A stretch of DNA of 48,299 nt. Source: Halioglobus sp. (GTDB taxonomy: Bacteria; Pseudomonadota; Gammaproteobacteria; Pseudomonadales; Halieaceae). Below are positions 6,728 through 21,802 of this stretch, in pieces. The stretch lies in assembly GCA_020443425.1 (NCBI GenBank), contig JAGRIE010000029.1:1-48299 (forward strand), written 5' to 3'. Every line of letters begins with the position of its first letter. The stretch's first letter is position 1. A program made the translations under genes and the position numbers. The notes under the pieces were generated by a model. The model was not told the origin of the DNA. It saw only the letters and a program-made list of their open reading frames with translations, and did not search any database.

Positions 6728-6754
6728 CTCCATGTCCTCTTATAAGGCTGGGTG

Positions 6755-8221
6755 TTATACCGGGTAGGCGATGGTCTTTGTTTCGAGGTATTCATCGAAC
6801 CCCTCCGGGCCCATCTCCCGACCTATACCACTTTGCTTGTAGCCACCAAAGGGGGCATCGCCGCCCAACCAGGCAGCCCCATTAATGCCTATCGTTCCGG
6901 TGCGAATACGACGCGCAACCGCCGTAGCGCGCTCTTCATCGGCGGAATACACCGCGCCGGAAAGGCCGTAAATGGAATCATTGGCGATGCGCACCGCATC
7001 GTCTTCATCCTCATAGGGAATGATCACCAGCACAGGGCCAAAAACCTCCTCCTGGGCTATGGTCATGTCGTTCGTCACATCAGAGAAGACGGTGGGCTCC
7101 ACAAACCAGCCCTTTTTCAGATGTGCGGGACGACCGCCACCCAAAATCAGTCTCGCCCCTTCCTTCTTCGCATCCTCAATCATGCCCAGTACTCTTGACT
7201 GCTGCCGCTTGCTGATCAGCGGCCCCATCAATTCGCCACTGGTGTCCGGACTGCCGTAGGTGACGCCACCGAGGTAGGCCTTGACCAGTTCCTCCGCTTC
7301 AGCCAGCCTCGATCGGGGTACCAGCAGGCGCGTGGTGATAGCGCAGCCCTGGCCCGCGTGGGCGCAGACGCTGAACACACCGAACAGCGCTGTACCCAGG
7401 TCGGCGTCCTCCAGCACGATCATTGCGGATTTTCCGCCCAGTTCCAGGAACACCCGCTTGATGGTATCGGCACTGTTCTTCACGATATGGCGACCCACGG
7501 CAGTGGAGCCTGTGAAGGACACGACATCGACACGGGGATCGGTCGTCAGGAAATTGCCAATTTCGGCTGGGTCCTGCGCGGTCAGAACGTTGAGAACACC
7601 GGCGGGGAAACCCGCCTCTTTGGCGTAGCGTCCGAGAAGTGCCGCCGTCCAGGGCGTATCGGGGGCCGATTTCAGCACCACGGTGCAGCCCGCTGCCAGC
7701 GCCGGCATGCATTTGGCGAGATTGATCTGGATAGGAAAGTTCCACGGTGAAATTGCGGCGACTACACCCGCGGCTTCTTTTTCTACCACCCGGCGACTGA
7801 CAGTGCCCATCACTTCGTTGTTACCTATGTCGCGTCGCCACTCAAAGTTTTCCAGGTAGTCGATCACCCAGCTTGCCTCTTTTACCGGGCCCACTGCCTG
7901 TGGCCCTTCGGCGAAGAACTGGGTGGCCCCCACTTCCGCCATGGCGGCCTGCTTTAATTCTGCAATATTGTCCCTCATAATCTGTACAAAGCGGCGCAGC
8001 ACCTCAATGCGGGCGCGGTGGTTGGTGGACCAGTCGCTGTTATCGAAAGCATTGCGCGCCGCAGCCAACGCATCCTCGGCATCGGCCAGGGTAGCGTCCG
8101 CCGCCTCCCCGATCTTTTCCTCTGTCAGCGGCGAAAAGTTATCATAGCGGCGTCCGCCTTCGGCGTTGCGCAGTTCACCATTGATATACAAGCGGTCTTC
8201 ACCGTAGCTGGGCTGGCTCAT
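6755..8221 (-). CDS. NAD(P)-dependent aldehyde dehydrogenase
   Basis: Full-length ALDH-superfamily protein (488 residues). Visible landmarks are SPWNFPI, the nucleotide loop FTGSTAVG, the general base in LELGGKSAMIVLEDADL (Glu near 259), and the nucleophile Cys293 in GQGCAITTRL. The late EEVFGPVLVI and the C-terminal GFDEYLETKTIA are also typical. It oxidises an aldehyde to an acid with NAD(P). It sits 24 bases downstream of the beta-hydroxyacid dehydrogenase and 21 bases before the SDR, so the three are one transcription unit. Its last 30 codons are closely matched by a gene remnant at 20576-20645, showing that a paralogue once stood beside the other MarR-controlled promoter. Confidence 0.93.
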   Translation of the reverse strand: MSQPSYGEDRLYINGELRNAEGGRRYDNFSPLTEEKIGEAADATLADAEDALAAARNAFDNSDWSTNHRARIEVLRRFVQIMRDNIAELKQAAMAEVGATQFFAEGPQAVGPVKEASWVIDYLENFEWRRDIGNNEVMGTVSRRVVEKEAAGVVAAISPWNFPIQINLAKCMPALAAGCTVVLKSAPDTPWTAALLGRYAKEAGFPAGVLNVLTAQDPAEIGNFLTTDPRVDVVSFTGSTAVGRHIVKNSADTIKRVFLELGGKSAMIVLEDADLGTALFGVFSVCAHAGQGCAITTRLLVPRSRLAEAEELVKAYLGGVTYGSPDTSGELMGPLISKRQQSRVLGMIEDAKKEGARLILGGGRPAHLKKGWFVEPTVFSDVTNDMTIAQEEVFGPVLVIIPYEDEDDAVRIANDSIYGLSGAVYSADEERATAVARRIRTGTIGINGAAWLGGDAPFGGYKQSGIGREMGPEGFDEYLETKTIAYPV

Positions 8222-8245: not shown

Positions 8246-9142
8246 TTAATTCTGGTGGGGCATGTCTTGCCTGGGTGGTCGGGACTCGTCCCGGGCCAGA
8301 AATACATTTTCTATGCGATCACGCACGTAAACCGCCGTGGGCAGCACAACACCATGATCCGCTGCTGTATCCAGAGCGCACTGCAGGTCCTTGCGCCCCA
8401 GAGCGCCCAGAGCGCCGAAGAATTGCTCCATCTCCTCTTCAGAGCAGGACCGGGCAAGGCCATTGCGGCCGGAGACAAACATGTGCATCTGTTCGTTGAC
8501 CACACCATTGGACAGGCCTACTTCCCTGAGCACATCCACAGACAGGCCGCAGGCTTCCGCCAGGCGAGTCGCCTCAGCCATCGCGACAAACTCAGTGTAT
8601 TGAATGAAGTTATTGCAGAGCTTGAGGGCAATGCCCGAGCCGAGTGATCCAGCGTGCACCACTTTTTCTGCGGAAGTCATGAAGACTGGGCGGCAGCGCT
8701 CGACAATTTCCTTGTCGCCACCAACCATATAGCAGAGCGTACCCTCAGCAGCACGATGGGCCCCACCCGTAATAGGCGCATCCAGCAGGTGAATACCTTT
8801 CTCACCGGCCTCTTCAGCCCACTTGAGAACACTGGCCTGTGTCACCGTACTATGAATGGCAACAATCGAGCCTTTAGCCGCATTGGCGAGGACACCACCT
8901 TCCCCGTACAACAACTCTTCCACTTGTTGATCATCGCGCACGCAAATACCGATGTGCACGCACTTACCGGCTAATTCCGCGACAGATTGGCAGCCTGTTG
9001 CCCCCTTTTCTACCAGCTCATCAACTGCCGGTTGGAAGACATCGAAGACATGTACTGCCAGCTGGTCAGTGATCAGGCGTTCAGCGGATGGCTTGCCGAT
9101 ATTACCCAAGCCAATATAGCCGACGTTTGCTTTTGCTGTCAT
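8246..9142 (-). CDS. Beta-hydroxyacid dehydrogenase (3-hydroxyisobutyrate dehydrogenase family)
   Basis: Begins with the Rossmann motif VGYIGLGNIGKPSAERL. It contains the substrate-binding DAPITGGAHRAAEGTL segment and the catalytic Lys in GSGIALKLCNN, all hallmarks of the 6-phosphogluconate/3-hydroxyisobutyrate dehydrogenase family. It oxidises a beta-hydroxy acid with NAD(P). The frame is open to 9226, but I chose ATG 9142: GGAAAG precedes it, the domain starts five residues later, and the longer version would run through the promoter module at 9176-9217. The protein is 298 residues, normal for the family. It is the first gene of the operon continuing with aldehyde dehydrogenase, SDR and LLM oxidoreductase. 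Confidence 0.9.
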   Translation of the reverse strand: MTAKANVGYIGLGNIGKPSAERLITDQLAVHVFDVFQPAVDELVEKGATGCQSVAELAGKCVHIGICVRDDQQVEELLYGEGGVLANAAKGSIVAIHSTVTQASVLKWAEEAGEKGIHLLDAPITGGAHRAAEGTLCYMVGGDKEIVERCRPVFMTSAEKVVHAGSLGSGIALKLCNNFIQYTEFVAMAEATRLAEACGLSVDVLREVGLSNGVVNEQMHMFVSGRNGLARSCSEEEMEQFFGALGALGRKDLQCALDTAADHGVVLPTAVYVRDRIENVFLARDESRPPRQDMPHQN

Positions 9143-9175: not shown

Positions 9176-9250
9176 AGTATAGGGCGCGGGAAAACTATAG
9201 GTCAAGCTATATTGACTATTAGACAAGTGCCCTTTACTTTATTTGCCGTG
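9176..9250. promoter_or_regulatory. Bidirectional promoter with MarR-type operator (module A)
   Basis: On the minus strand, TTGACC (9205-9200) and TATACT (9181-9176), 18 bases apart, drive the dehydrogenase operon, with a predicted start about 27 bases before ATG 9142. On the plus strand, TTGACT (9212-9217) and TACTTT (9235-9240) are 17 bases apart. The two -35 boxes form GTCAA-N6-TTGAC. TTGACTATTAGACAA (9212-9226) is a near palindrome matching the MarR-gene operator at 20712-20726 in 13 of 15 bases. The plus-strand promoter faces only GTG 9248 and nine codons before a stop. Bases 9251-9399 hold no recognisable gene. Binding by the tandem MarR at 20747 is inferred from the shared sequence. 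Confidence 0.7.
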
Positions 9251-9399
9251 ACTACAGCGCAACCGAAACAACCATAACCAGTGCTCCGACACACTGCAGA
9301 CAGATCGCGACAATTTGACTCGGTACGTTCCCGCGCAGTGTTGTGCTCGCCGGCTGCCTGACCTGATCGAGGTCATCTTGTTAGAAGAAAGGCCCTACG

Positions 9400-11556
9400 C
9401 TATACCCGGGCCACATCGGCAATCACACCATTCATATGTGACATACCCGATCCGGGCTCGATAGACTCAGGGCCATCGGGAATGATTCTGTTGACGTTGG
9501 CGCCCTCGGTATTCCGAGCGACGCTTAGCCCATCGGCCTGCTGATGCCCCCAGCCGTGAGGCACTGAGATTGTTCCCGGCAGCATGTCTTCATCCAGTTG
9601 GACAGGCACTTCAACGGATTTGTTACCCACACTGATTCGCGCTATATCGCCAGTGGACAGGTTTCTCACTTGCGCGTCCTGGGGATGAATGAAGAGATAG
9701 TTGGTATTGCGCTTGCCTTTTACGAATGCCTCAACATTGTGCGCCCAACTGTTATGGGTGAAACGTTCGCGCTTTTGTATCAGTTTTAGCGCGCAGGCAT
9801 TCTGTCGTTCCATGTCAAAGACCTTGTCCAGACCTTTCGCGCGCTCTACCAGATCCGGCGGTGCAAGCTCAACCTTGCCGGACTGTGTATTAACCCTTTT
9901 GCCCAGAAAATCACCAGGCTGGTTTGGTTCCAGGAGAATACCGTCAGGGTGCTTGCGCAACTTGCGCAGACCACCGAGCCTTCCTGAAAGCGTCAACAGT
10001 GAAATAAACAGACGGTCGAAGGATGTTTTCCTGCCCGGAAACGGAATCCTGTCAATTGCCTCGGCCGCATTACTGAGCAATTGAAATAGTCTTGATCCCG
10101 CTATCGGCTTCCCGGCCACCCGACACAATTGACGAAAAATCAAACCCTCATCTCGGGATTCGCCGGCAGGGGAAAGCATGGGCTCAGTGTAGGTGAAACT
10201 GCGAACAGGCATCAGTCCCATAAAAGTAAAAAAGTAAAATGGAACATCAGGCCGCTCCAGACTATGCAGCCCGGGGAGTATGTAGTCCGCATACCCGGCG
10301 GTTTCGTTGCGCACTATATCGATACAGACCAGCAGTTCCAGGTCATCGAAGGCACTGGCCAGCCGATCACTTCCAGCGCAGCTCAGCAGGGGGTTCCCCG
10401 CCATATTGAACATGGCACGGACCTTACCGGGCCCGGGCGTCAGGATTTCGTCCGCCATAATGCCCGCCGGAATGGTGCTGTTCACGTAAGGGATATTATT
10501 GATCCGGGATCTTGGCACCTCAGACACTCGAGGCGGCGATGGAAATACCCCCTTACCTGCCAGTACTCCTCCCTTTTTATCGAGATTACCGGTGATGGCA
10601 TTGATGGACTCCTGCAACCAATAAGCCATAAGCCCCTGACTTCCCTGATTCACCCCGGTAGAGGAGTAGATCGCAGCCCCATCAGCTGCCAGGTAGTCAT
10701 CTACCATCTTTCTCAGTGTGGAAGCAGACATCTGCGTTACTTCAGCAACCCGTTCCGGCGTCCACGGCTTTGCAATCTCCACCAGTGTTTCATACCCATT
10801 CATGTACCGCTGCACACGCTCTTCATCCACGGCAGCCCGGCGAATCACTTCGTGCAGGAAGCCCAGCAGGAAAAACACGTCGGTATCAGGACGAATAGGC
10901 ACATGTTCGCCAAATCGCTTGGCAGACTCGGTATATCGGGGGTTGACCCAATAAACCTTACCCCCTTTGCGCTCGATGTCCATCAGCCTCTCCATCGGAT
11001 GGGGCATGGTGATGAAACTCATCTTTGAAATGACGGGATTGGTACCGACAGCAATCAGGAGGCGCGTATGATCAATGTCGGGGAAGACCTGATCGTTAGG
11101 ACTGCCAAACAGGCGCTCCCCACCGGCAAACTTGTTAGCGCAATCCTGGGTGCCTGGCGTAAACAGCTTTCTGGCGCCGAACGCCTGGAGAAACAATGTC
11201 ATCATTGTCGTCGGCCAGATACTGAAACCGATCGGATTACCCATGTAGGCCGCTATCGATTCCCCCCCATGCTGGCGATGGATTGCCTTGAGCTTACCGC
11301 CAATTTCCTCGAGTGCCTGGTCCCAACTGATAGGGACGAAGTTCCCGTCCACTTTCTTCAGAGGCTGCTTGAGGCGATCGGGATTGTGTACGAAATCCCC
11401 CATTCTCAAGCCCTTGATACACGCGTAGCCTTTACTCGCGACATGATCCTCATTCGGCTTTATATCAACAATCCGGTTATCCCGGGTACTGACAACAAGA
11501 CCACACTGTGCCTCACAGATTCGGCAGATGGTTTTCCCCTGTTTCACGCTATTCAT
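9400..11556 (-). CDS. Cytoplasmic molybdopterin-dependent oxidoreductase
   Basis: A 718-residue DMSO-reductase-superfamily protein. The N-terminal CRICEAQCGL with Cys11, 14, 18 and 46 forms the [4Fe-4S] site. It is followed by molybdopterin-oxidoreductase domains and a C-terminal molydopterin-dinucleotide-binding domain (HPQDAQVRNLSTGDIARIS onward). Cys139 (GTQDCANKFAGGERLFGS) aligns with the position that ligates molybdenum in nitrate reductases such as NapA, by my eye. There is no twin-arginine signal, so it should be cytoplasmic. No electron-transfer subunit or chaperone gene is adjacent. It is probably transcribed with the sulfotransferase 111 bases upstream. Its substrate is unknown. AGGAG lies about 11 bases before the ATG. 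Confidence 0.88.
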   Translation of the reverse strand: MNSVKQGKTICRICEAQCGLVVSTRDNRIVDIKPNEDHVASKGYACIKGLRMGDFVHNPDRLKQPLKKVDGNFVPISWDQALEEIGGKLKAIHRQHGGESIAAYMGNPIGFSIWPTTMMTLFLQAFGARKLFTPGTQDCANKFAGGERLFGSPNDQVFPDIDHTRLLIAVGTNPVISKMSFITMPHPMERLMDIERKGGKVYWVNPRYTESAKRFGEHVPIRPDTDVFFLLGFLHEVIRRAAVDEERVQRYMNGYETLVEIAKPWTPERVAEVTQMSASTLRKMVDDYLAADGAAIYSSTGVNQGSQGLMAYWLQESINAITGNLDKKGGVLAGKGVFPSPPRVSEVPRSRINNIPYVNSTIPAGIMADEILTPGPGKVRAMFNMAGNPLLSCAGSDRLASAFDDLELLVCIDIVRNETAGYADYILPGLHSLERPDVPFYFFTFMGLMPVRSFTYTEPMLSPAGESRDEGLIFRQLCRVAGKPIAGSRLFQLLSNAAEAIDRIPFPGRKTSFDRLFISLLTLSGRLGGLRKLRKHPDGILLEPNQPGDFLGKRVNTQSGKVELAPPDLVERAKGLDKVFDMERQNACALKLIQKRERFTHNSWAHNVEAFVKGKRNTNYLFIHPQDAQVRNLSTGDIARISVGNKSVEVPVQLDEDMLPGTISVPHGWGHQQADGLSVARNTEGANVNRIIPDGPESIEPGSGMSHMNGVIADVARV

Positions 11557-11667
11557 GCTACCGATGACTCCTGGTTTTTCGGCCCCGGTTCAGGGCATGC
11601 TTGAGGTACTTCCGCAGACTCGCCCGACGCTGCTGTGGAAACTGGTTGAAGAGGACAACCTCGTCCA

Positions 11668-12903
11668 TCAAAGGCCAAAGCGCTTGCAATAATCGGCAAA
11701 AAGCTCACCGTGTTGCCGCTGGCTTAAACCGAATTGTTCCAGCGAGTAGTGATGGCTTCCATGTTTGTCCCGTGGTCGACTCTCCAGATACGCCTGCATG
11801 GCCTGACGTACCTCATCACTGAAGTCAAAATCGAAATGTTTGTACAGGCTTTCGCACACGGCAATCGGGTCGGACAACATATCGTCAAACTGTACATCAT
11901 AGATCCGGCTGCTTTCATCGGCCATGCCCGCCCTTTTCTCCATACCCTGCGCCAACATCGCAGAAAAATAATCCACTTCGGCCTGCGCTATTGCGATCGG
12001 ATCAATGTCGTCGCTGAAAGCGCTGTGTAACGTACACGATAAGCTGGAAATTGAACCCAACACATCCATCGGAGCCCTGTGAGTCTGCACGATCGCAGCG
12101 TCGGGATACTGCTGTATCAGCGTATCGAGATACGCGAGGTGTGGCGGCGTTTTCAGCACCCACCGCTGCTCCCTATAATCCACCTGCAGGTGCTGTAAAA
12201 ACTGGTGATGCCACTGGTAAGCGGCCGTCATGTCCTGCGCTAATGTCCAGTGCCGGTACTCCGGGATATAGAAACTGACGCCGAACTGGTCAGAGATAAA
12301 ATGCGGTGCTAACAGAGCTACGCACTCCTGCGGCAACTCCGCACCCATGGCGTGAATCGCCTGGAACCCCGGCGCGAGTAACTCCATTTTCTGGACATGC
12401 TTTTCAACGTCGGGAATTCGTGGATCCGTGTGAAAACTGTGCCGCTGCGCAGGCGGAATCGGCTGTGCGACCTCCCATGTGGCCGGAGCCCGGTGTGCCG
12501 GATCCTGGGCCAGCAGCTCATATAGAATAGTGGTGCCAGTGCGCGGCAAACCCAGCACGAACAGGGGCCGTGTGATTTTCTGCTGCGCAACCTCTGGCCG
12601 CCGCTTTCTATATTCTGTCAGGTGCAGCCGCAGCTTGAGGTTATCCAGCAGCATACCGCGCACCGCAATGCGCCCCAACTGCGAAAGCCTGGCTTCACGC
12701 TCCAGCGCAAATGTAAGCTTTTCCAATGCCGGGATAAAGCTCTCGTCACCAAAGTCGCCCAGCCCTGTCTGCTTTTCTGCGTTGCGAATCAAAGCTTCAG
12801 CAGGCAGCAATGACGGCCTTTCTATCCGAAGCTTTCTCAATCCGCGCCCGATACGGTTTATAACTTTAATCCCCGCAGGCTGATTCGGAGAGGGGTATTG
12901 CAT
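11668..12903 (-). CDS. Sulfotransferase-family protein
   Basis: A 411-residue protein with the PAPS-binding 5'-phosphosulfate loop LFVLGLPRTGTT (roughly residues 111-122). The 3'-phosphate motif is in VQTHRAPMDVLGSISSL, and the intervening helices are typical of bacterial sulfotransferase-3-type proteins. It would move sulfate from PAPS to a hydroxyl group on a small molecule or lipid; the acceptor is unknown. In Cellvibrionales genomes such proteins are often found in large paralogous sets near steroid or lipid catabolism genes (general knowledge, not shown here). GGGGAA lies six bases before ATG 12903. It lies 72 bases after the DUF3604 gene on the same strand. Confidence 0.88.
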   Translation of the reverse strand: MQYPSPNQPAGIKVINRIGRGLRKLRIERPSLLPAEALIRNAEKQTGLGDFGDESFIPALEKLTFALEREARLSQLGRIAVRGMLLDNLKLRLHLTEYRKRRPEVAQQKITRPLFVLGLPRTGTTILYELLAQDPAHRAPATWEVAQPIPPAQRHSFHTDPRIPDVEKHVQKMELLAPGFQAIHAMGAELPQECVALLAPHFISDQFGVSFYIPEYRHWTLAQDMTAAYQWHHQFLQHLQVDYREQRWVLKTPPHLAYLDTLIQQYPDAAIVQTHRAPMDVLGSISSLSCTLHSAFSDDIDPIAIAQAEVDYFSAMLAQGMEKRAGMADESSRIYDVQFDDMLSDPIAVCESLYKHFDFDFSDEVRQAMQAYLESRPRDKHGSHHYSLEQFGLSQRQHGELFADYCKRFGL

Positions 12904-12975
12904 ATACGTTCCCCTTGGCTACTGACCGCCAATCAATGAACATTGCGGTATGGGCACTACCTGGCGCTTGCCCTG

Positions 12976-14850
12976 CTACGAGCCGGGATTGACCCAGATC
13001 GCCGAACTCACCGCTCGCTCCTGAAGAGTCTGGGGCGCGGGCGCTTCGACGCCCAGCGACTTGGCGTCGTAGGTGCTGTAGCGCGGCGTGGGTATCTCGA
13101 TCGCCCTGGCATAGTAAAACGCCTGCTGTGTGGGTTCGTATTCCGGATCTGTCCAGATGGCAGACAATTCAGGACTGCCGATAGTATTGGTGTAACTCGC
13201 CTCTGCAACATTCACCGTACTCCCTACATCGGCAATCTCCCCCTTGCGACCACGCTGCATACGCTCGCCTGACGCGGCAACATCAATCACTCTTTCATGG
13301 CTGAGGCCTGCTTCATCAACCCATGCCTTGATCACCTGCAACCGATCCAGGTTTGCGCCCAGTGGATCTTTGCTCGCGGCGAGGATAAAAGTCGGTGAGG
13401 CCCCATCACGGGCTGCCAATTCCCCTCCCATGGGCACACCATTTGCGTAGGCCTGCTGCAACCATTCACTTCCCCGCAGCGTGTCAGGATAATCCCACCC
13501 CGCAAAGAAACGTAGTGATATCCGCGGCCCCGAAGTGGCATAGGTCTCCCGGCGACGCATCGCATCGAAAATCGATGCCCTGGTATTCTCCGGCGCCCAT
13601 ACAGCAACCAGCCCCGCCGCTCCATACACTTTCGCAACAGCCATTCTGTCATCGATAAATGCAACACCAAGCCGCTGGGCGGCCGTTCCGTCCAGCAACG
13701 GCAACTTGCCGTGGAAATTATCTTCCTCCACAGGGTCGCTCGCGTTGTGGCTGTCAGTGCTGGCGATTACACCAAATCGGTAGGGATTGAAGCCTTCGCG
13801 ATGAGCAAACTCCAGACCTGTTCTCAGTGCATCCCGTGCATAGCTGCCTTTGGGCTCGCTGGGTGGGGAACTTGCCGTCATCAGTGTATCCATCAGCTCA
13901 AAGTCTGCGAACTGATCCTCCGGGGAAAGTTCCGGGTGTGTTTCTGATGTCCCCTTCACCTGGAAGATCTCCACCAGCGATTCGTTACGCGAGCGCAGCT
14001 CGCTATATTCCTCAGTCAGGGGTTGACCATTGAATGTCGTCGTCTCGAACATCCTGCCGCCGCTGACATTGCTGTTGTGTGGAATCGACATTACCTCCAT
14101 TCCGAGCGCACGTTGCTCATCCAACACACGCCACAGGTCTTCGGGGTTTTCAGAATCCGAAGAGCTATAGGGGAAATCTGGCACCTTGTCTGAACGGTAG
14201 ATCACATTGCGGTGCAGGTTACGCTCGTCCGGCATCGAGCTGTATTCATAGCCAACAAATGCCGTGAACCTGCCAGGGTCATTATGTCGCTGTGCAGACG
14301 CACGAATTTCATTCCAGGCGCTGAGGGACACATCGTGAAAATTATCCCCCCCAAAATTCTCCTCCCTCTTCTCCCGCGATCTCATAGTGAAGAAAGCGCG
14401 GTAGATAAAAAGCGCATTGAACCTTGGCACACTGCCACTTTTCAGCGCATTGATCAGGTTAGCATCAGGCCTGTCCTTATCGTCCCCTGCGAGATAGCGG
14501 GGAACACCAAGGTACTCAGCGTGGTCCGTGACGGCGCCGAAATCGAGTGGGCGGTCCGCGCGAATGGGATAGCCCAGTCCATGCTGGATGGTGCCACCTT
14601 TCATGAACGTATAGGCATCATCAGGCAGCGATCGCGTACCCATGGTGAATGCATCGTAGGACAGCGCCGTATGCACGTGTAGATCACCCCAGAGTAAATT
14701 ACCCGTCGGGTTGTATGGGACCATCTCCCGGTTCGGCGGGGGCGCTGCTGTGGCCTCATCAAACGGTACCGCGAGGATTGGTTCCTCGAACCTTGAACAA
14801 GCGGTCATCACCACCACAAGCGCGACCAGGGAATAGCGCAGCGTCCTCAT
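12976..14850 (-). CDS. DUF3604 (PHP-like) lipoprotein
   Basis: A 624-residue protein with a lipoprotein signal ([13 protein letters not shown], lipobox Cys near residue 19). It should therefore be an exported, lipid-anchored protein. The body is DUF3604: [17 protein letters not shown] near residue 55, then [12 protein letters not shown] and [11 protein letters not shown], giving His and Asp clusters like the metal sites of PHP phosphoesterases. No activity is established for this family to my knowledge. The frame is open to 14889, but ATG 14850 puts the charged n-region MRTLR directly before the hydrophobic core; GGAGG and GAAGAA lie upstream. A good minus-strand promoter with an operator-like repeat precedes it. 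Confidence 0.85.
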
Positions 14851-14973
14851 TTCTTCACGTCTCCCTCCGGGTTTTCGATGCCTGCCCACTGACGATTTGG
14901 CCTCCTCGGCCAGACTCCGGCTCCGTATCGTGTGCTTCCCAGAATTGGACCGGGGCGGCCCACTGCTTACGTT

Positions 14974-15019
14974 ATAGTTTCGACTATTTTTTTATATACT
15001 TACACACTACGCCTTTGAA
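14974..15019 (-). promoter_or_regulatory. Promoter of the DUF3604 gene with start-site inverted repeat
   Basis: On the minus strand TTCAAA (15019-15014) and TATAAA (14996-14991) are 17 bases apart, a good sigma-70 promoter. Immediately downstream, ATAGT-TTCG-ACTAT (14974-14987) forms an inverted repeat covering the predicted start site, a usual place for a repressor operator. The rest of 14851-15189 contains no gene that I can support. Confidence 0.5.
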
Positions 15020-15189
15020 TAAAAGCGATTCAGGCAACCACACTGTTCAAGACTTCGGTCGCTGCGGCACTGCCAGAGACAGGGACTTTTTGCATGTCTC
15101 GCGCTGGCCTGCGCGGCTTTTGCCTCGGGAGATTTTTCGCGCGCTCGACCCCGTCAGCGTTATGGCGATGCACGCTACGGGCGGCAGTA

Positions 15190-15729
15190 TCAGGCCTCTT
15201 TGGTATCCGGTTTGCTGTTGCGTTTGTAGCGCAGCGCCCGGTCGAACACCGCATCGTCGCGACGCGACCCGACGAGGCCATCCGGTGCGAGTTGGAAGTA
15301 CGGATCATTGCAGGGGCGACTATGGCTCCAGTCCACGCGCTCGGAGCGATAGGCAAACTTCCACTCGCCATCGCGGCGTTCATAGCGGTCGAGGTAGCGC
15401 CCGGCGATGATGATATCTTCAAAGCCGCCCTCCCCGGCCACTTTGTGGTAGGCATTGAAGTACACCTCGCCAAACGCCTCATCACCTGCGACATCGATCA
15501 GGATATTGCCGACGAAGTGGTGGTTTGCCTGATGGCTCGCCAGCGCCTGCATACAGTAGTCGACAAAGTTGTTTGCGCCGCAGTTGATGAAGCCGTATTC
15601 GCACCAGGCGTCGTCGTGGAACAGCGAGCGCATCAGCGGCTCATCCCATCGGTCGAGCGCGCGCATGTACAGGTACACCAGCTCGGTGATGTCCTGTTTC
15701 GCAATCAGGGTATCCAGTGTGTTCGCCAT
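15190..15729 (-). CDS. SnoaL-like (NTF2-fold) protein 1
   Basis: A 179-residue NTF2-fold protein (SnoaL-like family). LIAKQDITELVYLYMRALDRWDEPLMRSLFHDDA is the standard N-terminal helix-turn, and AGRYLDRYERRDGEWKFAYRSERVDWS forms the closing sheet. Family members include polyketide cyclases, ketosteroid isomerase relatives and small subunits of ring dioxygenases. Residues 20-25 (ALDRWD) and the C-terminal VDWS pattern are shared with the next gene, so the pair arose by duplication. ATG 15729 was chosen over the upstream start because GGGAGG lies five bases before it. It starts 11 bases after the stop of the upstream paralogue and is its operon partner. Confidence 0.82.
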   Translation of the reverse strand: MANTLDTLIAKQDITELVYLYMRALDRWDEPLMRSLFHDDAWCEYGFINCGANNFVDYCMQALASHQANHHFVGNILIDVAGDEAFGEVYFNAYHKVAGEGGFEDIIIAGRYLDRYERRDGEWKFAYRSERVDWSHSRPCNDPYFQLAPDGLVGSRRDDAVFDRALRYKRNSKPDTKEA

Positions 15730-15739
15730 CGCGGCCTCC

Positions 15740-16267
15740 CTAGTTGACTGGAAACAGTGCATGCGCGGGATCACTGCGATCGCAGCGACCCTTTGAGAGC
15801 GCCGCGTAGGCGTCGCCGTTGCGCTCGTCCTGCACCGCCACCCGCAGGCTCCAGTCCATCACCACCTGGCGATGCAGGATTTTCCACTGCTGTTCACGCT
15901 GTTCCAGCGTATCCAGGTAGCGACCGGCAAAGGCCAGTTCCTCCTCAGCGCCGCGCAGCAGGTGACGGGCGTAGACATAGGTCTCCGCGCGCGCCTGATC
16001 GCCGTCCAGTGCGATGAATGTCTGCCCCAGCAAGTGCTGGGTGAGCTCGTAGGCCTCCGCCAGGGCCGGCCCTATCAGCTCGGCAAACTGATACGCCGGG
16101 CCCTTGAATGCACCGTAGTCCACCCGCGCCTGCGGCCAGTACGCCGCCTTCAGCAGGTCGGGCTCATTGCGATCCAGCCCCCGGCTGTGCACTGCCAACA
16201 CCTCCCGGATGGCCTCGCGACGGGCTGTGTCCTGCGCATCTGGTACGACGCCGATACGTCCTGTCAT
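15740..16267 (-). CDS. SnoaL-like (NTF2-fold) protein 2
   Basis: A 175-residue SnoaL-like protein. AIREVLAVHSRGLDRNEPDLLKAAYWPQARVDYG is the family's N-terminal part, and FAGRYLDTLEQREQQWKILHRQVVMDWS the C-terminal strands. It is paralogous to the next gene downstream. It is transcribed divergently from the Rieske oxygenase, with a 153-base shared control region. Small NTF2-fold proteins are the beta subunits of some ring-hydroxylating dioxygenases, so this pair could assist the divergently encoded oxygenase, as subunits, isomerases or dehydratases. That link rests only on position. Confidence 0.82.
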   Translation of the reverse strand: MTGRIGVVPDAQDTARREAIREVLAVHSRGLDRNEPDLLKAAYWPQARVDYGAFKGPAYQFAELIGPALAEAYELTQHLLGQTFIALDGDQARAETYVYARHLLRGAEEELAFAGRYLDTLEQREQQWKILHRQVVMDWSLRVAVQDERNGDAYAALSKGRCDRSDPAHALFPVN

Positions 16268-16347
16268 ACGGTTTCTCCCCCGACGGCTTTTCCAATCGAG
16301 GCTCCGGCACTTGCCATCGGCGCACGATTAGGGTCAAATTGATAAAA

Positions 16348-16365
16348 AAACAGTCAAAGCTGTTT
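16348..16365. promoter_or_regulatory. Operator-like inverted repeat in divergent control region
   Basis: AAACAG-TCAAAG-CTGTTT is a perfect 6-bp inverted repeat with a 6-base spacer, midway between the divergent SnoaL-like and Rieske-oxygenase genes. TTGATA (16339-16344) lies just to the left. A -10 box at ideal spacing is not obvious on either strand. A TetR- or MarR-type regulator could bind here; no regulator gene is adjacent. Confidence 0.4.
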
Positions 16366-16420
16366 GTAACATTAAACACCGGCCATCGTCGATCAGCAAG
16401 GCCGTAACCACAGGACGCCT

Positions 16421-17809
16421 ATGACTGCCAGCCATGCACCCCGACCCGGCGACGCACGGGCCCAGGGCCCGACCGTCGCAGACGCCCTCCAGCAGGACAG
16501 CCGCAGCGTACCCGAGGCTCTGCTTGAGCAGTGCTATGCGTTCCTCGGGGACGAGGACCTGCCCGTCGAGCGCTATATCAGCCGCGAATTCTTCCAGCGG
16601 GAAATCGAGTACCTGTGGCCGAATGCCTGGCAGTGGGCGTGCCGTGAAGAACATGTGCCCGACGCCGGTGACAGCTATGTGTACGACATCGGCCCCTACT
16701 CGGTGCTGATAGCACGCATGGAGGACGGCAGCGTAAAGGCCTTTCTCAACGTCTGCACACACCGGGGCACACGGCTGGTCGATGCCGAGGGCTGCACGTA
16801 TACGCAGGGACTCACCTGTCCTTTCCACGGCTGGTCCTGGCACCTCGACGGCTCCGTGCGCAATATCCCGGGCCAGTGGGATTTCCCCCACACGGTCGGC
16901 GACAGCCATCGGCTGGCAGACGTACGCTGCGAGCGGTGGGGCGGGTTCATCTTCATCAACCTCGACCCCGAGGCGCGGCCACTGGAAGACTATCTCGGGG
17001 TGATGAAAGAGCACTTCCAACAGTTCCCACTGGAGCAGCGGCGCATCCGCGCGCATGTGCAGAAGCTACTACCGGCCAACTGGAAGACCGCGCAGGAGGC
17101 CTTCATGGAGGCCTACCATAATTTCGAGACACACGACTCGCCCCACGGCGCCAACGCCCAGTACGATGTGTTCAGCGAGTATGTCAGCCGCTTTATTCAC
17201 ACTATCGGCAGCTACAGCACCGCCGCGCTGTCGGACTACCCCGGCGATAAATGGCGCAAGCCGCCCATGACCGAGCAGGAGATCCTCGCCGGCCTGTCGA
17301 TGGACGATCGCGAACTGGGTGCCGGTGAAACCGCCAGGCAGGTTGCGGCACAGGCACTGCGCGAGCAGTTCCGGGAACAGCTGGGCGTGGATCTCGATCA
17401 CTGCAGCGACAGCCTGATGCTGGATTCCATCGAGTACCACCTGTTCCCCAATATGTTCTTCTTTCCGGGCATCATGATTCCGATGGTTTACCGGTTCCGG
17501 CCCAACGGCGACGATATCGACAGCTGTATCTTTGATGTGCTGGTACTGGAACCCCTGCCGGAGGGAGCGGACCACCCGGAGCCGCCGGAGCCGACACAAT
17601 TGGGTATCGAGCAGTCCTATACCGAGGCGCCCGAGCTCGGCTGGCTGGCCCCCGTCTACGATGAGGACACGGGCAATCTCGACCTGCTGACCCGGGGGCT
17701 CAAAACCAGCCGCAAGGGCGTCACACTGGGCAACTACCAGGAGGCCCGAATCCGGCGGGTACATCTCACCCTCGAGCAGTTCATGGCGCGAGGCAAGGCA
17801 TTCCGATGA
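16421..17809 (+). CDS. Rieske non-heme iron oxygenase, alpha subunit
   Basis: A 462-residue ring-hydroxylating-dioxygenase-type alpha subunit. The Rieske centre is Cys112/His114 and Cys133/His136 (CTHRG then CPFHGWSW). The mononuclear iron site is in NWKTAQEAFMEAYHNFETH, with His233 and His238. The residue that bridges electron flow between subunits, Asp in naphthalene dioxygenase, is Glu230 here, as in carnitine monooxygenase CntA. The enzyme hydroxylates, demethylates or otherwise oxidises an organic substrate with O2. Electrons probably come through the ferredoxin encoded next, whose ATGA overlap indicates coupling. No reductase gene is nearby. AGGA lies six bases before ATG 16421. The substrate is not predictable. 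Confidence 0.9.
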   Translation: MTASHAPRPGDARAQGPTVADALQQDSRSVPEALLEQCYAFLGDEDLPVERYISREFFQREIEYLWPNAWQWACREEHVPDAGDSYVYDIGPYSVLIARMEDGSVKAFLNVCTHRGTRLVDAEGCTYTQGLTCPFHGWSWHLDGSVRNIPGQWDFPHTVGDSHRLADVRCERWGGFIFINLDPEARPLEDYLGVMKEHFQQFPLEQRRIRAHVQKLLPANWKTAQEAFMEAYHNFETHDSPHGANAQYDVFSEYVSRFIHTIGSYSTAALSDYPGDKWRKPPMTEQEILAGLSMDDRELGAGETARQVAAQALREQFREQLGVDLDHCSDSLMLDSIEYHLFPNMFFFPGIMIPMVYRFRPNGDDIDSCIFDVLVLEPLPEGADHPEPPEPTQLGIEQSYTEAPELGWLAPVYDEDTGNLDLLTRGLKTSRKGVTLGNYQEARIRRVHLTLEQFMARGKAFR

Positions 17810-18123
17810 GCGACAACAGGTTTACACGTGTCGCCAGCGTGGCGGAGATAGCCCGGGGCAAGACCCACTGTATTACCCATGGCGATACCGAGTTGCTGCT
17901 GTGTCACACCCCCGAGGGTTTCTTCGCGGTGGACAACCTCTGCACGCACGCGGCGGCCCGCATGAGCGAGGGAAAGCTGAAGGGCTGCAGGATCCTCTGC
18001 CCGCTGCACGGCGCCGCCTTTGATGTCCGCGACGGCGCTGTGCTCAGCCGCCCGGCACGCGAGCCCCTGCGCAGCTATGCAGTCAAGGTGGAGGGAGACG
18101 ACATCTACATCGCGCTGGCTTAA
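17806..18123 (+). CDS. Rieske-type [2Fe-2S] ferredoxin
   Basis: A 105-residue Rieske ferredoxin. NLCTHAAARM (Cys-x-His) and CPLHGAAFDV (Cys-x2-His), 17 residues apart, bind the cluster. The start overlaps the oxygenase stop in an ATGA arrangement, so the two proteins are made together. Its role is almost certainly to pass electrons from an unseen NAD(P)H-dependent reductase to the Rieske centre of the alpha subunit. The length is normal for BphA3/NirD-like ferredoxins. Confidence 0.9.
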   Translation: MSDNRFTRVASVAEIARGKTHCITHGDTELLLCHTPEGFFAVDNLCTHAAARMSEGKLKGCRILCPLHGAAFDVRDGAVLSRPAREPLRSYAVKVEGDDIYIALA

Positions 18124-18310
18124 GCCGGCGATATATACGCTTTGACCATCTCCCGCCAGCGGCCAGTCGCGGCAGTGTTGCACAACTCTCCCACCCTTCC
18201 AACAGCCGGCCTCACCCATCCGGGCAAACCTCCCCTCACTTCAGGGCGACTCTGCGCTATGATGCACAGCGTAGTCACGCGAGCAATGATTCCTGAAGGA
18301 GATCGACACT

Positions 18311-18559
18311 ATGATGGTCACGGTTGACATCAGTATGTATCCACTGAATGTGGATTTCAGCGGGCGGGTACAGGGCTTTATTGACGAAGTGGCGACACGC
18401 CAGGGGTTGCGGGTGAGCCCGGGCTCGACATCGACGGTCATTATCGGCGAATACCTGCACGTCATGAACACCCTCACTGAACTGCTCGCCTGGAGCCACC
18501 GCGAGCACGGTCAATCCGTATTCGTCACCAAATTCATCCTCGACTACGAGGCCGGGTGA
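18311..18559 (+). CDS. YkoF/MTH1187-like small protein (thiamine-binding fold)
   Basis: An 82-residue protein starting VTVDISMYPL and ending EHGQSVFVTKFILDYEAG, the signature of small proteins with the YkoF/MTH1187 (DUF77-like) ferredoxin-like fold. Some relatives bind thiamine or pyrimidine moieties. AAGGAG lies nine bases before the first of two adjacent ATGs. It follows the ferredoxin after a 187-base gap, so it may have its own promoter. The link to the oxygenase is unknown. It might be a general ligand-binding or chaperone-like protein. Confidence 0.7.
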   Translation: MMVTVDISMYPLNVDFSGRVQGFIDEVATRQGLRVSPGSTSTVIIGEYLHVMNTLTELLAWSHREHGQSVFVTKFILDYEAG

Positions 18560-18635
18560 GCGCGGTCACCAGAGGTAACTGGCGAATGAAAGCGGTCGCA
18601 AAATAAAATGCCTCCGTCCCCATTATTGGTCCCCA

Positions 18636-19049
18636 TTATGGTGATTCAGCGGGTGCGCGGGTGGTGCGAGCGGGGAAAATTTCCGCGGTGAGCTGATAGA
18701 GTGCGGCGTCAAAACTGTGCTCGGGATTGTCGAGGCAGTATTTCTCCAGCCACACCATCAGGGTCTTGCTGTTCTTCCTGCCACCGATATCGTAGGTGTC
18801 AGACGCGAGCCGGTTGATGCCGGTCAGGTAGCCCATGGTGTACAGTGAAAACCCGTACAGGGCACCCCAGTCATCCTCCTTCTTGGCGCTGTTCACCGCG
18901 CGGTTCAGCGCATAGCAGGTTTCGACCTTGCCGAAGGCCCGCACCTTGTACTGCCCGCCCTCATCAGCAGCCCTTGCGACCTGCTGCACGGCACCCGCCA
19001 CCAGCGCCACGGCCACAGCCGCGGCCAACACTGCACGCTTGCTACCCAT
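18636..19049 (-). CDS. Exported Rap1a/Tai-like or HdeA-like small protein
   Basis: A 137-residue protein with a signal peptide (KRAVLAAAVAVALVAGAVQQVARAADE, cleavage after ARA). The mature part has two cysteines (VETCYALN and EKYCLDN), an aromatic GALYGFSLYTMGYLTGINR segment and DNPEHSFDAALYQL. That layout recalls the Rap1a/Tai immunity family and HdeA-like periplasmic proteins. No type VI effector is nearby, so an immunity function is not supported by context. I chose ATG 19049, with GAGG five bases upstream. ATG 19064 is an alternative and gives five more residues. The long open frame further upstream is not protein-like. Confidence 0.65.
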   Translation of the reverse strand: MGSKRAVLAAAVAVALVAGAVQQVARAADEGGQYKVRAFGKVETCYALNRAVNSAKKEDDWGALYGFSLYTMGYLTGINRLASDTYDIGGRKNSKTLMVWLEKYCLDNPEHSFDAALYQLTAEIFPARTTRAPAESP

Positions 19050-19180
19050 AGCCTCCTCTCGCATAACCCCTGTTATCAATTGCCGTCCGCCGGCGGGCGG
19101 CACAGCCACCCCGCACGGCGCTCCACATCGCTTGGCGGACGTGGAAAACGGGGGATATTGACAGCAATCTCTGACGGGCG

Positions 19181-19708
19181 CTAGCGGTTGTGGGCAAGTT
19201 GCGTCTGGAGCTTCTGTTTCATCGGCAACACCCACTGCGCCTTGAGCTGGGGAGACAGCAGGCCGGCGTCCTCGAGGTCATCGCACAGTTTCATCTGGTG
19301 GGCGAGATCAAACATGTCGAACTGGCGACAGATCCGGCCCTCCCCGTCCAGCGCCAGGAAGGAGATCCCCGGCGTTTCGAAATAGCTGCCATCCGCACGC
19401 CTGCCCGGGCCCCGGTTCATCCAGTGGGTGATCAGCTGGTTGTCCGCCCCGATGTACACACCGAGGTAGGGGAAGGTCCAGCCCTCCCAGCCCACGTTCA
19501 TATCGCGGCCGTAATGTGTGGCCTTGATCTCCTCGATGCCATTCGCCGTGACGTCCATCACACCCGCGTACTGGCAGGTATACACGCAGTCCCGGGCGTA
19601 GATCTCATCGACGAAAAACAGCCAGTCATTGCTGCGCGAGGCCTCCTCATGGGCTGCGATCAGTTTGTCGGCTGTGGCACGCAGCACATCGTCACTTAAG
19701 CTGGTCAT
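19181..19708 (-). CDS. SnoaL-like (NTF2-fold) protein 3
   Basis: A 175-residue protein with an NTF2-like layout: LIAAHEEASRSNDWLFFVDEIYARDCVYTCQYAG, then HYGRDMNVGWEGWTFPYLGVYIGADNQLITHWMNRGPG and a C-terminal helical tail. Relatives include SnoaL-type cyclases and isomerase-like proteins. It is more distant from the pair at 15.2-16.3 kb than those are from each other. It follows the SDR and SDR-remnant on the same strand with a 13-base gap from the remnant stop, so it belongs to the SDR transcription unit controlled from 20.7 kb. Confidence 0.75.
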   Translation of the reverse strand: MTSLSDDVLRATADKLIAAHEEASRSNDWLFFVDEIYARDCVYTCQYAGVMDVTANGIEEIKATHYGRDMNVGWEGWTFPYLGVYIGADNQLITHWMNRGPGRRADGSYFETPGISFLALDGEGRICRQFDMFDLAHQMKLCDDLEDAGLLSPQLKAQWVLPMKQKLQTQLAHNR

Positions 19709-19720
19709 CTGTGGTCTCCG

Positions 19721-19798
19721 TTACCCGCGCATGAACTGGCCGCCATCGACATCCAGAATATGCCCGGTGATTACTAGGGTCCTGTTGTAATAATCCAT
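19721..19798 (-). pseudogene. Remnant of an SDR gene (C-terminal end only)
   Basis: Twenty-five codons from ATG 19798 to TAA 19721 encode VITGHILDVDGGQFMRG at the end. This is the classical C-terminus of short-chain dehydrogenases (usual form ITGQVIxVDGG). The rest of the gene is missing: the intact SDR at 19809-20576 stops ten bases upstream. It is most simply the tail of a second SDR left by a deletion. It might be translated as a 25-residue peptide but is not expected to function. Confidence 0.6.
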
Positions 19799-19808
19799 CG
19801 CAGCGCCC

Positions 19809-20576
19809 TCATTGGAGCAGGGTTTTCGGCGTCGGGGTGTTGGGGCGTATTTCGAGCAGGTCCACACCGACACCGGGCGGTTGTGACAGTGCATACAGCA
19901 CCGCGCCGGCAACGTGGTCGACGTCCATGCCGGTGTCGAGGTGGGTGCCCGCCTCTTTCCAGGCCGCCAGCGCGGACGCAAACGCCGCCGGGTCCCAACC
20001 GGCGGCGAAATCTGTCCAGGCACCGCCGGGGCGGATGCAGGTCACACCGATGCCGTCGCCCTGCACTTCCACGCGCAAATCCCGGGTGAAGCGCTCCACA
20101 GCGGCCTTGGTCGAGGCGTAGATCGACAGGTGGCTCATCTCGTCATAATGCCAGGCACTGGCAGAGGAGATAGTGAGAATGCGCGGATTGTCGCCACCGC
20201 GCAGCAGCGGTATCGCCGCCTGCGAACAGAACACTGTGCCCAGGAAATTGGTCTGTACCTGCGCCAGGACCTCGGTCTCGACCAAATGCTCAATGCGATT
20301 CGGTGTCGCCATTCCGGCGTTGTTGACCAGTCCGTCCAGGCGCCCGTAATGACTGTGGATTGCATCGAATGCAGCGACCACCTCAGCCCGCACGCCGACA
20401 TCGGCCGCCACGCCGAACGCGCGCTCCGGCCCGATCTCCGCCACAGCGCGATCGAGCAGCGCCGGGGTGCGGCTGACCAGCCCCACCCGCGCGCCGTTTT
20501 GAACCAGCGTGCTGGCCATCGCGAGCCCAAAGCCCCTGGAGGCACCGGTAACAATATAGACCCTGTCCTGCAGCAT
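19809..20576 (-). CDS. SDR-family oxidoreductase
   Basis: A 255-residue classical SDR: YIVTGASRGFGLAMA nucleotide loop, NNAG, the catalytic Ser in ILTISSASAW, and YASTK with the catalytic Tyr and Lys. It should reduce or oxidise an alcohol/ketone with NAD(P)(H). ATG 20576 overlaps the stop of an aldehyde-dehydrogenase remnant by one base (TGATG), the arrangement expected for coupled genes, so it once sat behind a full ALDH gene. It is divergent from the tandem MarR gene and read from the shared promoter at 20.68-20.75 kb, which makes it a likely MarR target. Confidence 0.88.
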   Translation of the reverse strand: MLQDRVYIVTGASRGFGLAMASTLVQNGARVGLVSRTPALLDRAVAEIGPERAFGVAADVGVRAEVVAAFDAIHSHYGRLDGLVNNAGMATPNRIEHLVETEVLAQVQTNFLGTVFCSQAAIPLLRGGDNPRILTISSASAWHYDEMSHLSIYASTKAAVERFTRDLRVEVQGDGIGVTCIRPGGAWTDFAAGWDPAAFASALAAWKEAGTHLDTGMDVDHVAGAVLYALSQPPGVGVDLLEIRPNTPTPKTLLQ

Positions 20577-20645
20577 CACGGCACTCCGGTGGCGATGGTC
20601 CTGGTTTCGAGGTATTCGGCAAAGCCCCGGCTACCCGATAGACCG
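20576..20645 (-). pseudogene. Remnant of an aldehyde dehydrogenase gene (3' end)
   Basis: The frame ending at TGA 20576 reads GFAEYLETRTIATGVP, the C-terminus of an aldehyde dehydrogenase. The intact ALDH at 6755 ends GFDEYLETKTIAYPV, and the two DNA segments agree in nearly all of about 28 aligned bases around the EYLET codons. Homology fades upstream of about 20645, and the promoter follows within 35 bases, so nearly the whole gene has been deleted. The TGATG junction to the SDR is preserved. Confidence 0.72.
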
Positions 20646-20677
20646 CGGGGCGACGCCCTCAAATTACTAGCCGTCAA

Positions 20678-20746
20678 AGTGTAGCGAGCCGGCGGCTTAA
20701 GTCAATATCAATTGACTAGTAGTCAATTGCAATTTACTATTTTGCC
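20678..20746. promoter_or_regulatory. Bidirectional promoter with MarR-type operator (module B)
   Basis: On the plus strand TTGACT (20712-20717) and TACTAT (20735-20740) are 17 bases apart, placing the start at about ATG 20747 itself, which implies a leaderless mRNA. On the minus strand TTGACT (20705-20700) and TACACT (20683-20678) are 16 bases apart. The two -35 boxes form GTCAA-N6-TTGAC. TTGACTAGTAGTCAA (20712-20726) is a perfect 7+1+7 palindrome over the plus -35 box and spacer. A dimeric MarR protein bound there would block both promoters, so autoregulation by the adjacent tandem MarR is the natural inference. A nearly identical module lies at 9176-9250. Confidence 0.78.
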
Positions 20747-21802
20747 ATGCCGGCATTGAACACAGACACCATCGACACCGATCTCCTCTGGAACCGGTAT
20801 CGCAATAATTTCTCCAGACACATGCTGGGCGTGGCGCGTTATGTGCAGCACAGCGTGATGAATACCCTGCAGGAACAGTGCGGACACCGGGACCTGAGGC
20901 TTAGCTTCTCACCCTATATCCATCTGCTGCGACAGGGTGATATGCGGCTGTCTGAGCTCGCCGACATCCTGGGCATCTCCCGCCAGGCCTGCAACCAGGC
21001 AGTCAAACAGGTGGAAGCCGCCGGCTATATCACGCGCACAGCTGATCCGGATGACGGCCGCGCGAAACAGCTCACGCTGTCGAAAAGCGGCCGAAAACTG
21101 AGTCGCGATGGCGAGCGCATCGTGACCCGACTGGACCAGCACTTCGCCCAGCTCGTCGGTAAACCAGAACTGGCCGATACCGGAAAATCACTGGACAGCT
21201 TAACCCGCCAGCTGTCGCCGCGCACCAATCGCCCCCACAGCCACTCACAACACGCGCAGGTGGGTGCCCTGCTAGCGCGACTGTCCGATTACATCATGCG
21301 TCGCTTAATGGAGTTGAACTACGCCAAAGGGCATACCGGGCTCAAGCTGTCTTTCGCCCAGGTGCTGACAATGATCGGGCCGCAGGGCGGGCGTATCCAG
21401 CAGATGGCAGCCGCACACGACGTCAGCAAACAGGCCATCAGCGCCATCGCCACCGAACTGGAAGCGCTGGGCTATCTGCAGCGACAGGCGGACCCGCTGG
21501 ACGCGCGCCAACTGGTTCTGCAGTTCACACCGCGGGGACAGGCGCTGATTGCCGATTCCGTGGCCAGCGTCGACCAGTTGGAACAGGAGTTTGGCGCCAT
21601 CATTGGCAGCGCGGCACTGAAGCAGATGAAAGATACGCTGTATGCGCTGTACCGCGCGCTGCAGCTTGAACAGGATATTTTCGATCTCAGCGGCACGGTG
21701 GATATCGCACTGCTGGCCCGGCAACTACGCCAGCAACTGGGCACCGACAACAGCCGCGCACTGGCAGAGCTGCTGCTGCAGCCCGCCACTAACCCGAGGT
21801 AG
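20747..21802 (+). CDS. Tandem MarR-domain transcriptional regulator (single-chain dimer)
   Basis: A 351-residue protein holding two complete MarR modules. The first spans about 15-150, with its winged helix at 66-118 (MRLSELADILGISRQACNQA, wing TADPDDGRAKQL). The second spans about 175-310, with its winged helix at 216-268 (RIQQMAAAHDVSKQAISAI, wing QADPLDARQLVL). A His/Ser/Arg linker (159-172) joins them. MarR proteins are normally about 150 residues and work as dimers; this is a covalent one, whose halves have diverged. No ribosome-binding site precedes the ATG, consistent with leaderless translation. The gene leads an operon with the membrane hydroxylase (6-base gap) and the CMD-fold protein. 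The ligand is unknown. Confidence 0.9.
   Translation: MPALNTDTIDTDLLWNRYRNNFSRHMLGVARYVQHSVMNTLQEQCGHRDLRLSFSPYIHLLRQGDMRLSELADILGISRQACNQAVKQVEAAGYITRTADPDDGRAKQLTLSKSGRKLSRDGERIVTRLDQHFAQLVGKPELADTGKSLDSLTRQLSPRTNRPHSHSQHAQVGALLARLSDYIMRRLMELNYAKGHTGLKLSFAQVLTMIGPQGGRIQQMAAAHDVSKQAISAIATELEALGYLQRQADPLDARQLVLQFTPRGQALIADSVASVDQLEQEFGAIIGSAALKQMKDTLYALYRALQLEQDIFDLSGTVDIALLARQLRQQLGTDNSRALAELLLQPATNPR

Follow-up and report, generated by a model that had tools for sequence, protein, structure and literature searches.

Two homologous operator-promoter modules in a Halioglobus contig as the probable separated halves of a tandem-MarR divergon

The 48,299-nucleotide stretch analysed here (hereafter the window), contig JAGRIE010000029.1 of the marine bacterium Halioglobus sp. 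(assembly GCA_020443425.1), carries two similar operator-promoter modules, A and B, 11.5 kb apart. Sequence comparison makes it quite probable that both descend from one bidirectional operator-promoter, that the divergon was split by complementary losses, and that a single tandem MarR regulator most likely binds both copies. The window is read as a split divergon because relatives keep marR and the dehydrogenase operon adjacent and divergent, with one module between them. In the ancestral state, the operator would have stood between a fused two-domain marR and a divergent operon for a 3-hydroxyisobutyrate-dehydrogenase-like enzyme (HIBDH), an aldehyde dehydrogenase (ALDH) and a short-chain dehydrogenase (SDR). 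At B, the marR side would have been kept, with the native HIBDH and nearly all of the native ALDH deleted and a second short-chain dehydrogenase gene, SDR2, left as the first gene after the old promoter. The operon side would have been kept at A, with an HIBDH of a different lineage, and the marR there would have decayed. Each copy of the module having lost one flanking gene, the one surviving regulator probably controls both places.

How alike are the two modules? Both have the layout GTCAA-N6-TTGAC-N5-G(T/A)CAA followed by a -10 box at 17 bp, and in both the TTGAC-N5-G(T/A)CAA palindrome overlaps the plus-strand -35 box. On the plus strand, the core of module A (GTCAA-N6-TTGACTATTAGACAA, in full GTCAAGCTATATTGACTATTAGACAA) spans 9201–9226 with its palindromic operator at 9212–9226, and the core of module B (GTCAA-N6-TTGACTAGTAGTCAA, in full GTCAATATCAATTGACTAGTAGTCAA) spans 20701–20726 with its palindrome at 20712–20726. 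The original prediction, made from the letters of the window, had described outward-facing -35 boxes separated by N6 and, on the plus strand, a -10 box exactly 17 bases away, and both features are present at A and B (TACTTT at 9235–9240 and TACTAT at 20735–20740). Its 15-base palindrome is indeed perfect at B; the two mismatches that it gave for A need rewording, as this copy has one mismatch to TTGACTANTAGTCAA and differs from B at two positions when the central base is included. The TTGCC that it placed before the start codons precedes the GTG at 9248 and the ATG at 20747, but the GTG opens a frame of nine codons only, which leaves A without a gene on its plus-strand side, and relatives do not conserve TTGCC. 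The spacing from the -10 box to the start is conserved, unlike TTGCC; neither TTGCC nor the GTG of A is a conserved functional feature. The proposed genome scan with the 15-base motif finds, at up to two mismatches, A and B only in 4,334,610 bases (4.33 Mb), the reversed control giving 12 matches per strand. The 26-base composite occurs in this genome at two places and its reversed control at one. In the window, the 15-base motif at up to three mismatches is found in 3 places against 0.65 expected, a number reached by 4 of 100 shuffles; the third site (10129–10143, three mismatches) lies inside the coding region of a molybdopterin oxidoreductase and is probably there by chance.

The tandem MarR (P0001, threshold above 200 bits) and the HIBDH (P0002, E at most 1e-55) were searched in 96 relatives and then in 140 family genomes, 39 of which have the tandem MarR, 43 the HIBDH and 38 both. 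In the stretches fetched, the two genes are adjacent in 32 units from 31 genomes, 99–414 bp lying between the aligned ends, and all 32 are divergent; named relatives include Halioglobus and Haliea. An operator with GTCAA at exactly N6 stands between marR and HIBDH in 31 of these units, which is the arrangement of a divergent MarR regulon, with the operator between the regulator and its divergent target; the unit of the window itself is split. ALDH follows HIBDH in 30 units, SDR2 is near in 29, SDR1 in 12, and a gene for a fatty-acid-hydroxylase-type enzyme (FAH) is beside marR in 29, some of the misses being contig ends. The composite GTCAAN{5,8}TTGACN{5}GNCAA occurs at 50 places in 43 of the 140 genomes (reversed control: 18 places), 45 of them beside the marR, HIBDH or ALDH of the system and all 45 with N6. 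The remaining five are in G109, G055, G119 (contig C234), G150 and G151; no query gene lies within the stretches fetched around those of G109 and G055. The composite is present in 37 of the 39 genomes with the tandem marR versus 6 of the 101 without it, and one of the six, G003, holds a unit cut by a contig end. The two tandem-marR genomes without the composite are G059, which has an operator with one change, and G163. The TAGACAA arm of A is a variant also found at intact units (G011, G032, G054, G117 and G022). Independent comparative genomics, in the form of these 31 of 32 units and of six of ten separated pairs (below), therefore supports the original prediction of the tandem MarR acting on the SDR/hydroxylase genes as well as on the dehydrogenase-ALDH-SDR-LLM operon.

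What remains of the missing halves in the window? Module B contains, on the plus strand, the marR promoter (20712–20746; -35 TTGACT, 17-base spacer, the -10 box and six bases to the ATG), from which a leaderless mRNA is predicted. Behind it lie the gene of the tandem, two-domain MarR (P0001, 351 residues, 20747–21802) and that of FAH (21809–22537), both on the plus strand. On the minus strand, the former dehydrogenase promoter (20678–20705; -35 TTGACT at 20700–20705, 16-base spacer, -10 TACACT at 20678–20683) now stands before SDR2 (19809–20579, 77% to that of relative G001), a member of the relatives' operon that has become first behind promoter B. Between the two, at 20582–20635 on the minus strand, are 18 codons, GFAEYLETRTIATGVP and then a stop, that read as what is left of the 3' end of the deleted native ALDH gene. 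Of 47 ALDH rows, 45 match this segment with their last 60 residues, at E values from 1e-5 to 2e-3, the ALDH of the window included, and the two rows without a match (G054 and G046) are both shortened by contig ends. An ALDH end between promoter B and SDR2 argues that the native HIBDH and nearly all of the native ALDH were deleted here and that SDR2 thereby moved up to the promoter. The gene order on the right-hand side is as in G001, namely SDR2, marR, FAH, cytochrome P450 (P450) and AMP-binding. No second tandem MarR was found in this genome, which is 94% complete; its other three matches score at most 49 bits.

Module A presents the opposite half. Its operon runs on the minus strand from HIBDH (8246–9142), the first gene, through ALDH (6755–8221) and SDR1 (5903–6733) to an LLM oxidoreductase (4809–5855; TIGR03857, 350.5 bits, above the curated cut-off of 218.4). 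The predicted promoter of this operon (9176–9205, minus strand) has -35 TTGACC at 9200–9205, an 18-base spacer and -10 TATACT at 9176–9181, and a matching -35 and -10 are found in 31 of the 32 relatives' units. On the plus strand lies a relic marR promoter (9212–9240; -35 TTGACT at 9212–9217, then the -10 box), in the same position as in relatives. A likely fossil of the 5' end of marR follows at 9248–9326 (plus strand): the GTG with nine codons and a stop, and then, at 9303–9326, a match to the YRDNFxRH codons of the relatives in another frame. When the most conserved marR-start codons are compared with the window codon by codon, position 9303 is outranked, among 96,550 positions, by the true marR alone; its distance from the start codon is roughly the natural one, its frame a different one. 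It is likely that a remnant of the marR 5' end lies downstream of A.

Genomes in which 1.2 kb or more, or a change of contig, separates marR from HIBDH offer a further comparison. There are eleven: the window, G014, G175, G031, G102, G042, G106, G163 and, from other families, G067, G090 and G086. The last was left out because its HIBDH runs to the contig end, leaving ten testable pairs. A strong operator, as scored by a weight matrix, lies upstream of the separated HIBDH in six (window 25.5, G175 23.9, G031 23.9, G102 24.9, G042 27.2, G106 21.9). Scores on the marR side are 27.7 in the window, 24.9 in G014, 21.2 in G102, 19.3 in G175, 19.3 in G031 (met as a background chunk) and 15.8 in G042, with low values in G067 (12.2), G106 (7.0), G090 (4.8), G086 (1.7) and G163 (-0.3). 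Among 1,780 control chunks, the highest scores are 19.3 (the marR operator of G031 itself), 19.2 (the window site at 10129) and 16.0, and the rest are at most 12.1. G053 has marR (score 17.6) and no true HIBDH; G003 was set aside and G021 was not fetched. The module also appears before other genes. In G014, the HIBDH beside marR is lost, the operator now stands before ALDH, and an HIBDH without an operator lies elsewhere (L069 9687–10544, L070 11681–15116). G016 has a distant second module on another contig, with a 15-base operator identical to that of A, before ALDH-SDR1-LLM (ALDH 81% to that of G001, LLM 83% identical to that of the window). A marR-like fossil beside this second module is plausible in the alignment with an unremarkable score, and we do not claim it. 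On the far side of the copied module, G031 has a Rieske gene with a 3-ketosteroid-9alpha-hydroxylase C-terminal domain, and G102 and G042 have a luciferase-like monooxygenase gene (loci L089 2300–3247, L087 6035–7031 and L085 3031–4074, that of G031 included); by eye only, G175 has a reading frame at its module similar to that of G031. No marR fossil is evident beside the copied modules of G175, G031, G102 and G042.

How would one operator serve two promoters? At the marR promoter, the operator contains the -35 box, so MarR binding would repress marR directly, and this autorepression is the firmest point of the proposed mechanism. At the operon promoters, the operator lies six bases upstream of the -35 core, and bound MarR would block polymerase at the paired -35 boxes until a ligand releases it from the operators and ends repression. 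The start codon of marR lies 6–8 bases behind the -10 box in 33 of 36 units, the exceptions being G033 and two G105 units (27 were read by script and six manually, where an earlier TTG or GTG had been picked), which is why the marR mRNA is probably leaderless. Repression of the operon promoters seems more likely than activation. An activating MarR that represses only its own gene is the less probable alternative. In its favour, the operator centre is near -50 of the operon promoter and the operator covers the -35 box of marR, a position that suits this arrangement with respect to both promoters, and MarR activators exist (PMC5487221). Against this, most characterised MarR proteins are repressors (PMC5487221), and a footprint longer than 15 bp would reach the operon -35. 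The geometry also allows a more tentative proposal. The outer GTCAA keeps its N6 in 31 of the 32 units, without the search requiring it, while its spacer to the -10 box varies from 16 to 18; a plain -35 box would not need a fixed N6, which suggests that GTCAA is part of the site of the protein. The true operator could then be the 26-base core, with three TTGAC half-sites at 11- and 10-bp steps, and the two different winged helices of the fused MarR, as a chain or a dimer of chains, might lock both outward -35 boxes. The module would in that case be a portable bidirectional switch repeatedly copied before new oxidoreductase genes, as if it had recruited SDR2 in the window (by deletion), ALDH-SDR1-LLM in G016, the luciferase-like monooxygenase in G102 and G042 and the Rieske 3-ketosteroid-hydroxylase-type gene in G031.

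Is module A still in use? The two modules could share ancestry without present regulation at A, which would then be a leftover, its HIBDH operon being expressed constitutively or controlled by some other protein. In sequence, the HIBDH nearest to that of the window is that of G014 (79%), and it has no operator before it. The HIBDH genes of G119, G099, G046 and G076 have none either, and a tandem marR was not found in these four genomes (G099 is 60% and G046 70% complete, so the lack of marR is uncertain in these two). We regard a leftover as unlikely, given that A retains the exact N6/N5 geometry and both -35 boxes, and that its TAGACAA arm is one used at intact units. The marR-less genomes can moreover be turned around: that four of the five clean HIBDH cases without marR have no operator suggests that retention reflects use. 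In the fifth, G062, a site that scores 15.4 falls within the beginning of the HIBDH gene and was not counted as an operator.

The two halves also appear to differ in descent. In the HIBDH tree, the window falls with G062, G014, G108, G110 and G027 (support 98/89); the approximately unbiased (AU) test rejects a grouping with G001, G002 and G016 (p-AU 3e-5) and, with less force, one with 13 members of their genus (p 0.028). The marR of the window groups with G001 and G002 in a quick tree (SH-aLRT, the Shimodaira–Hasegawa-like approximate likelihood-ratio test, 93). The ALDH of the window is an outlier to all 46 other rows compared, with at most 62% identity to any, despite its same operon position. 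HIBDH and marR being of different lineages and ALDH an outlier, unit A appears to be of other descent than unit B, presumably through transfer or an old duplication. This different descent and the marR fossil are supported but less certain than module identity, rarity, conservation, gene order and the ALDH fossil. Our first idea was a simple insertion: some 11 kb of foreign genes, from the molybdopterin oxidoreductase (MoOR) to the Rieske gene, would have entered and duplicated one intergenic region, leaving both genes as the original pair. The halves do share one contig in their original relative orientation, HIBDH leftward and marR rightward, and the intervening MoOR, SulfoT and DUF3604 genes have a G+C of 0.536–0.566 against 0.628 right of 24.4 kb; marR-FAH (0.578) and P450 (0.575), however, are also low. 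Against the insertion, module A aligns better with the modules of G054 (score 58), G013 (58) and G011 (56) than with B (40), and B aligns best with G014 (68) and G002 (67). The HIBDH of the window is not of the G001/G002 lineage, whereas its marR is, and B, as the fossil shows, has lost a separate ALDH. We set the insertion aside because of this fossil and the different HIBDH descent, and now hold it to be quite unlikely. An assembly artefact joining two distant pieces is very improbable: the assembly is fragmented, but the modules share only a short imperfect core, an unlikely cause of a false join, the right-hand side retains the G001 gene order, and each module is complete at whatever distance.

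Several observations weigh against the split divergon served by one regulator. The assembly consists of 222 contigs. One adjacent unit, G089, has no operator, and four of the ten separated HIBDH genes lack one (G014 -2.1, G163 7.9, G067 4.5, G090 -2.2). G175, G031, G102, G042 and G106 form one clade of the HIBDH tree and so are not five independent cases. This tree left out the distant rows G053, G089 and G086, dropped before the AU tests, and the clades tested were named after a first tree. As for the marR fossil at A, a protein hidden Markov model (HMM) gives E 0.03 over three frames, and it is outscored by all 12 control matches shown, drawn from 1,528 segments. When it is aligned globally as DNA, 306 real segments out of 1,923 and 68 shuffles out of 500 reach its best score, and 75 and 8, respectively, its summed score. 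Only the position-restricted codon test is strong, and its codon stretch was chosen after being seen. Because the two broader tests, protein HMM and global DNA alignment, are weak, the fossil is graded likely, not proven.

The regulator belongs to the MarR family, P0001 matching PF12802 in two stretches with 79.5 bits against a cut-off of 27. By secondary structure, two winged-helix domains can be made out in its predicted model, which has a moderate mean confidence (predicted local distance difference test, pLDDT, 72.8). The best Foldseek match in the PDB is SarS of Staphylococcus aureus (1p4x, E 2.5e-6), which we take to be a two-domain fusion within the Sar group. The match covers 268 alignment columns, longer than one MarR domain, but the TM-score is 0.38 on the query and the identity 14%, and against the Pfam Sar/Rot model P0001 scores 22.9 bits, below the cut-off of 27, which does not place it among two-domain Sar proteins. 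In hucR-uricase and pecS-pecM, the regulator is divergent to its target, with a palindromic intergenic operator and autoregulation; one target of PecS lies at another locus, and Vibrio has a duplicated pecS-pecM (PMC5487221, PMC6391409). The divergent arrangement and the palindromic intergenic operator are shared with the present system, for which autoregulation is likewise predicted. It differs in having two MarR domains on a single chain, in an operator that includes the -35 box of the regulator itself, and in the loss of complementary halves from the duplicated unit, so that one regulator would serve both. Literature searches for a tandem or fused MarR and for MarR with Halioglobus gave nothing relevant by titles and abstract openings, and no wider absence is claimed. 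On the enzyme side, the ALDH of the window and of G001 match best the model of Rv0768 (TIGR04284), presumably aldA, with 659.9 and 676.2 against a cut-off of 775, which leaves them outside the Rv0768 type. Both systems keep ALDH and dehydrogenase genes together. The mycobacterial aldA-Rv0769-Rv0770 group lies beside cyp51 and cyp123, and the part of the source drawn on here lists no tandem MarR with it (PMC10470581). The dehydrogenase, ALDH, SDR, LLM and FAH types, the nearby P450 and the ketosteroid-hydroxylase-type gene of G031 together suggest oxidation of a hydrophobic, perhaps steroid-like, compound.

Three further features of the contig deserve mention. The Rieske and SDR2 genes are some 2 kb apart (17810–19800), and the two minus-strand frames compared with Pfam in this gap, at 18636–19235 and 19181–19708, have no match and may not be genes. 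A DUF3604 gene lies at 12976–14889, and G053 and G105 have DUF3604-like genes adjoining the tandem marR. The region 2193–4583, with a G+C of 0.42 unlike the remaining contig, holds a gene for a 796-residue KAP-family P-loop NTPase, possibly a mobile or defence gene.

The proposed regulon is well supported by the comparisons and of a fairly ordinary bacterial kind. It gives the relatives a concrete, testable regulon for a so far uncharacterised fused MarR and an oxidative operon, and the window would illustrate clearly how, in nature, complementary losses can break up a divergent regulator and its target and yet leave both operator copies in place. If the operator does prove to have three half-sites, this would be a novel mode of simultaneous control of two promoters by a MarR protein.

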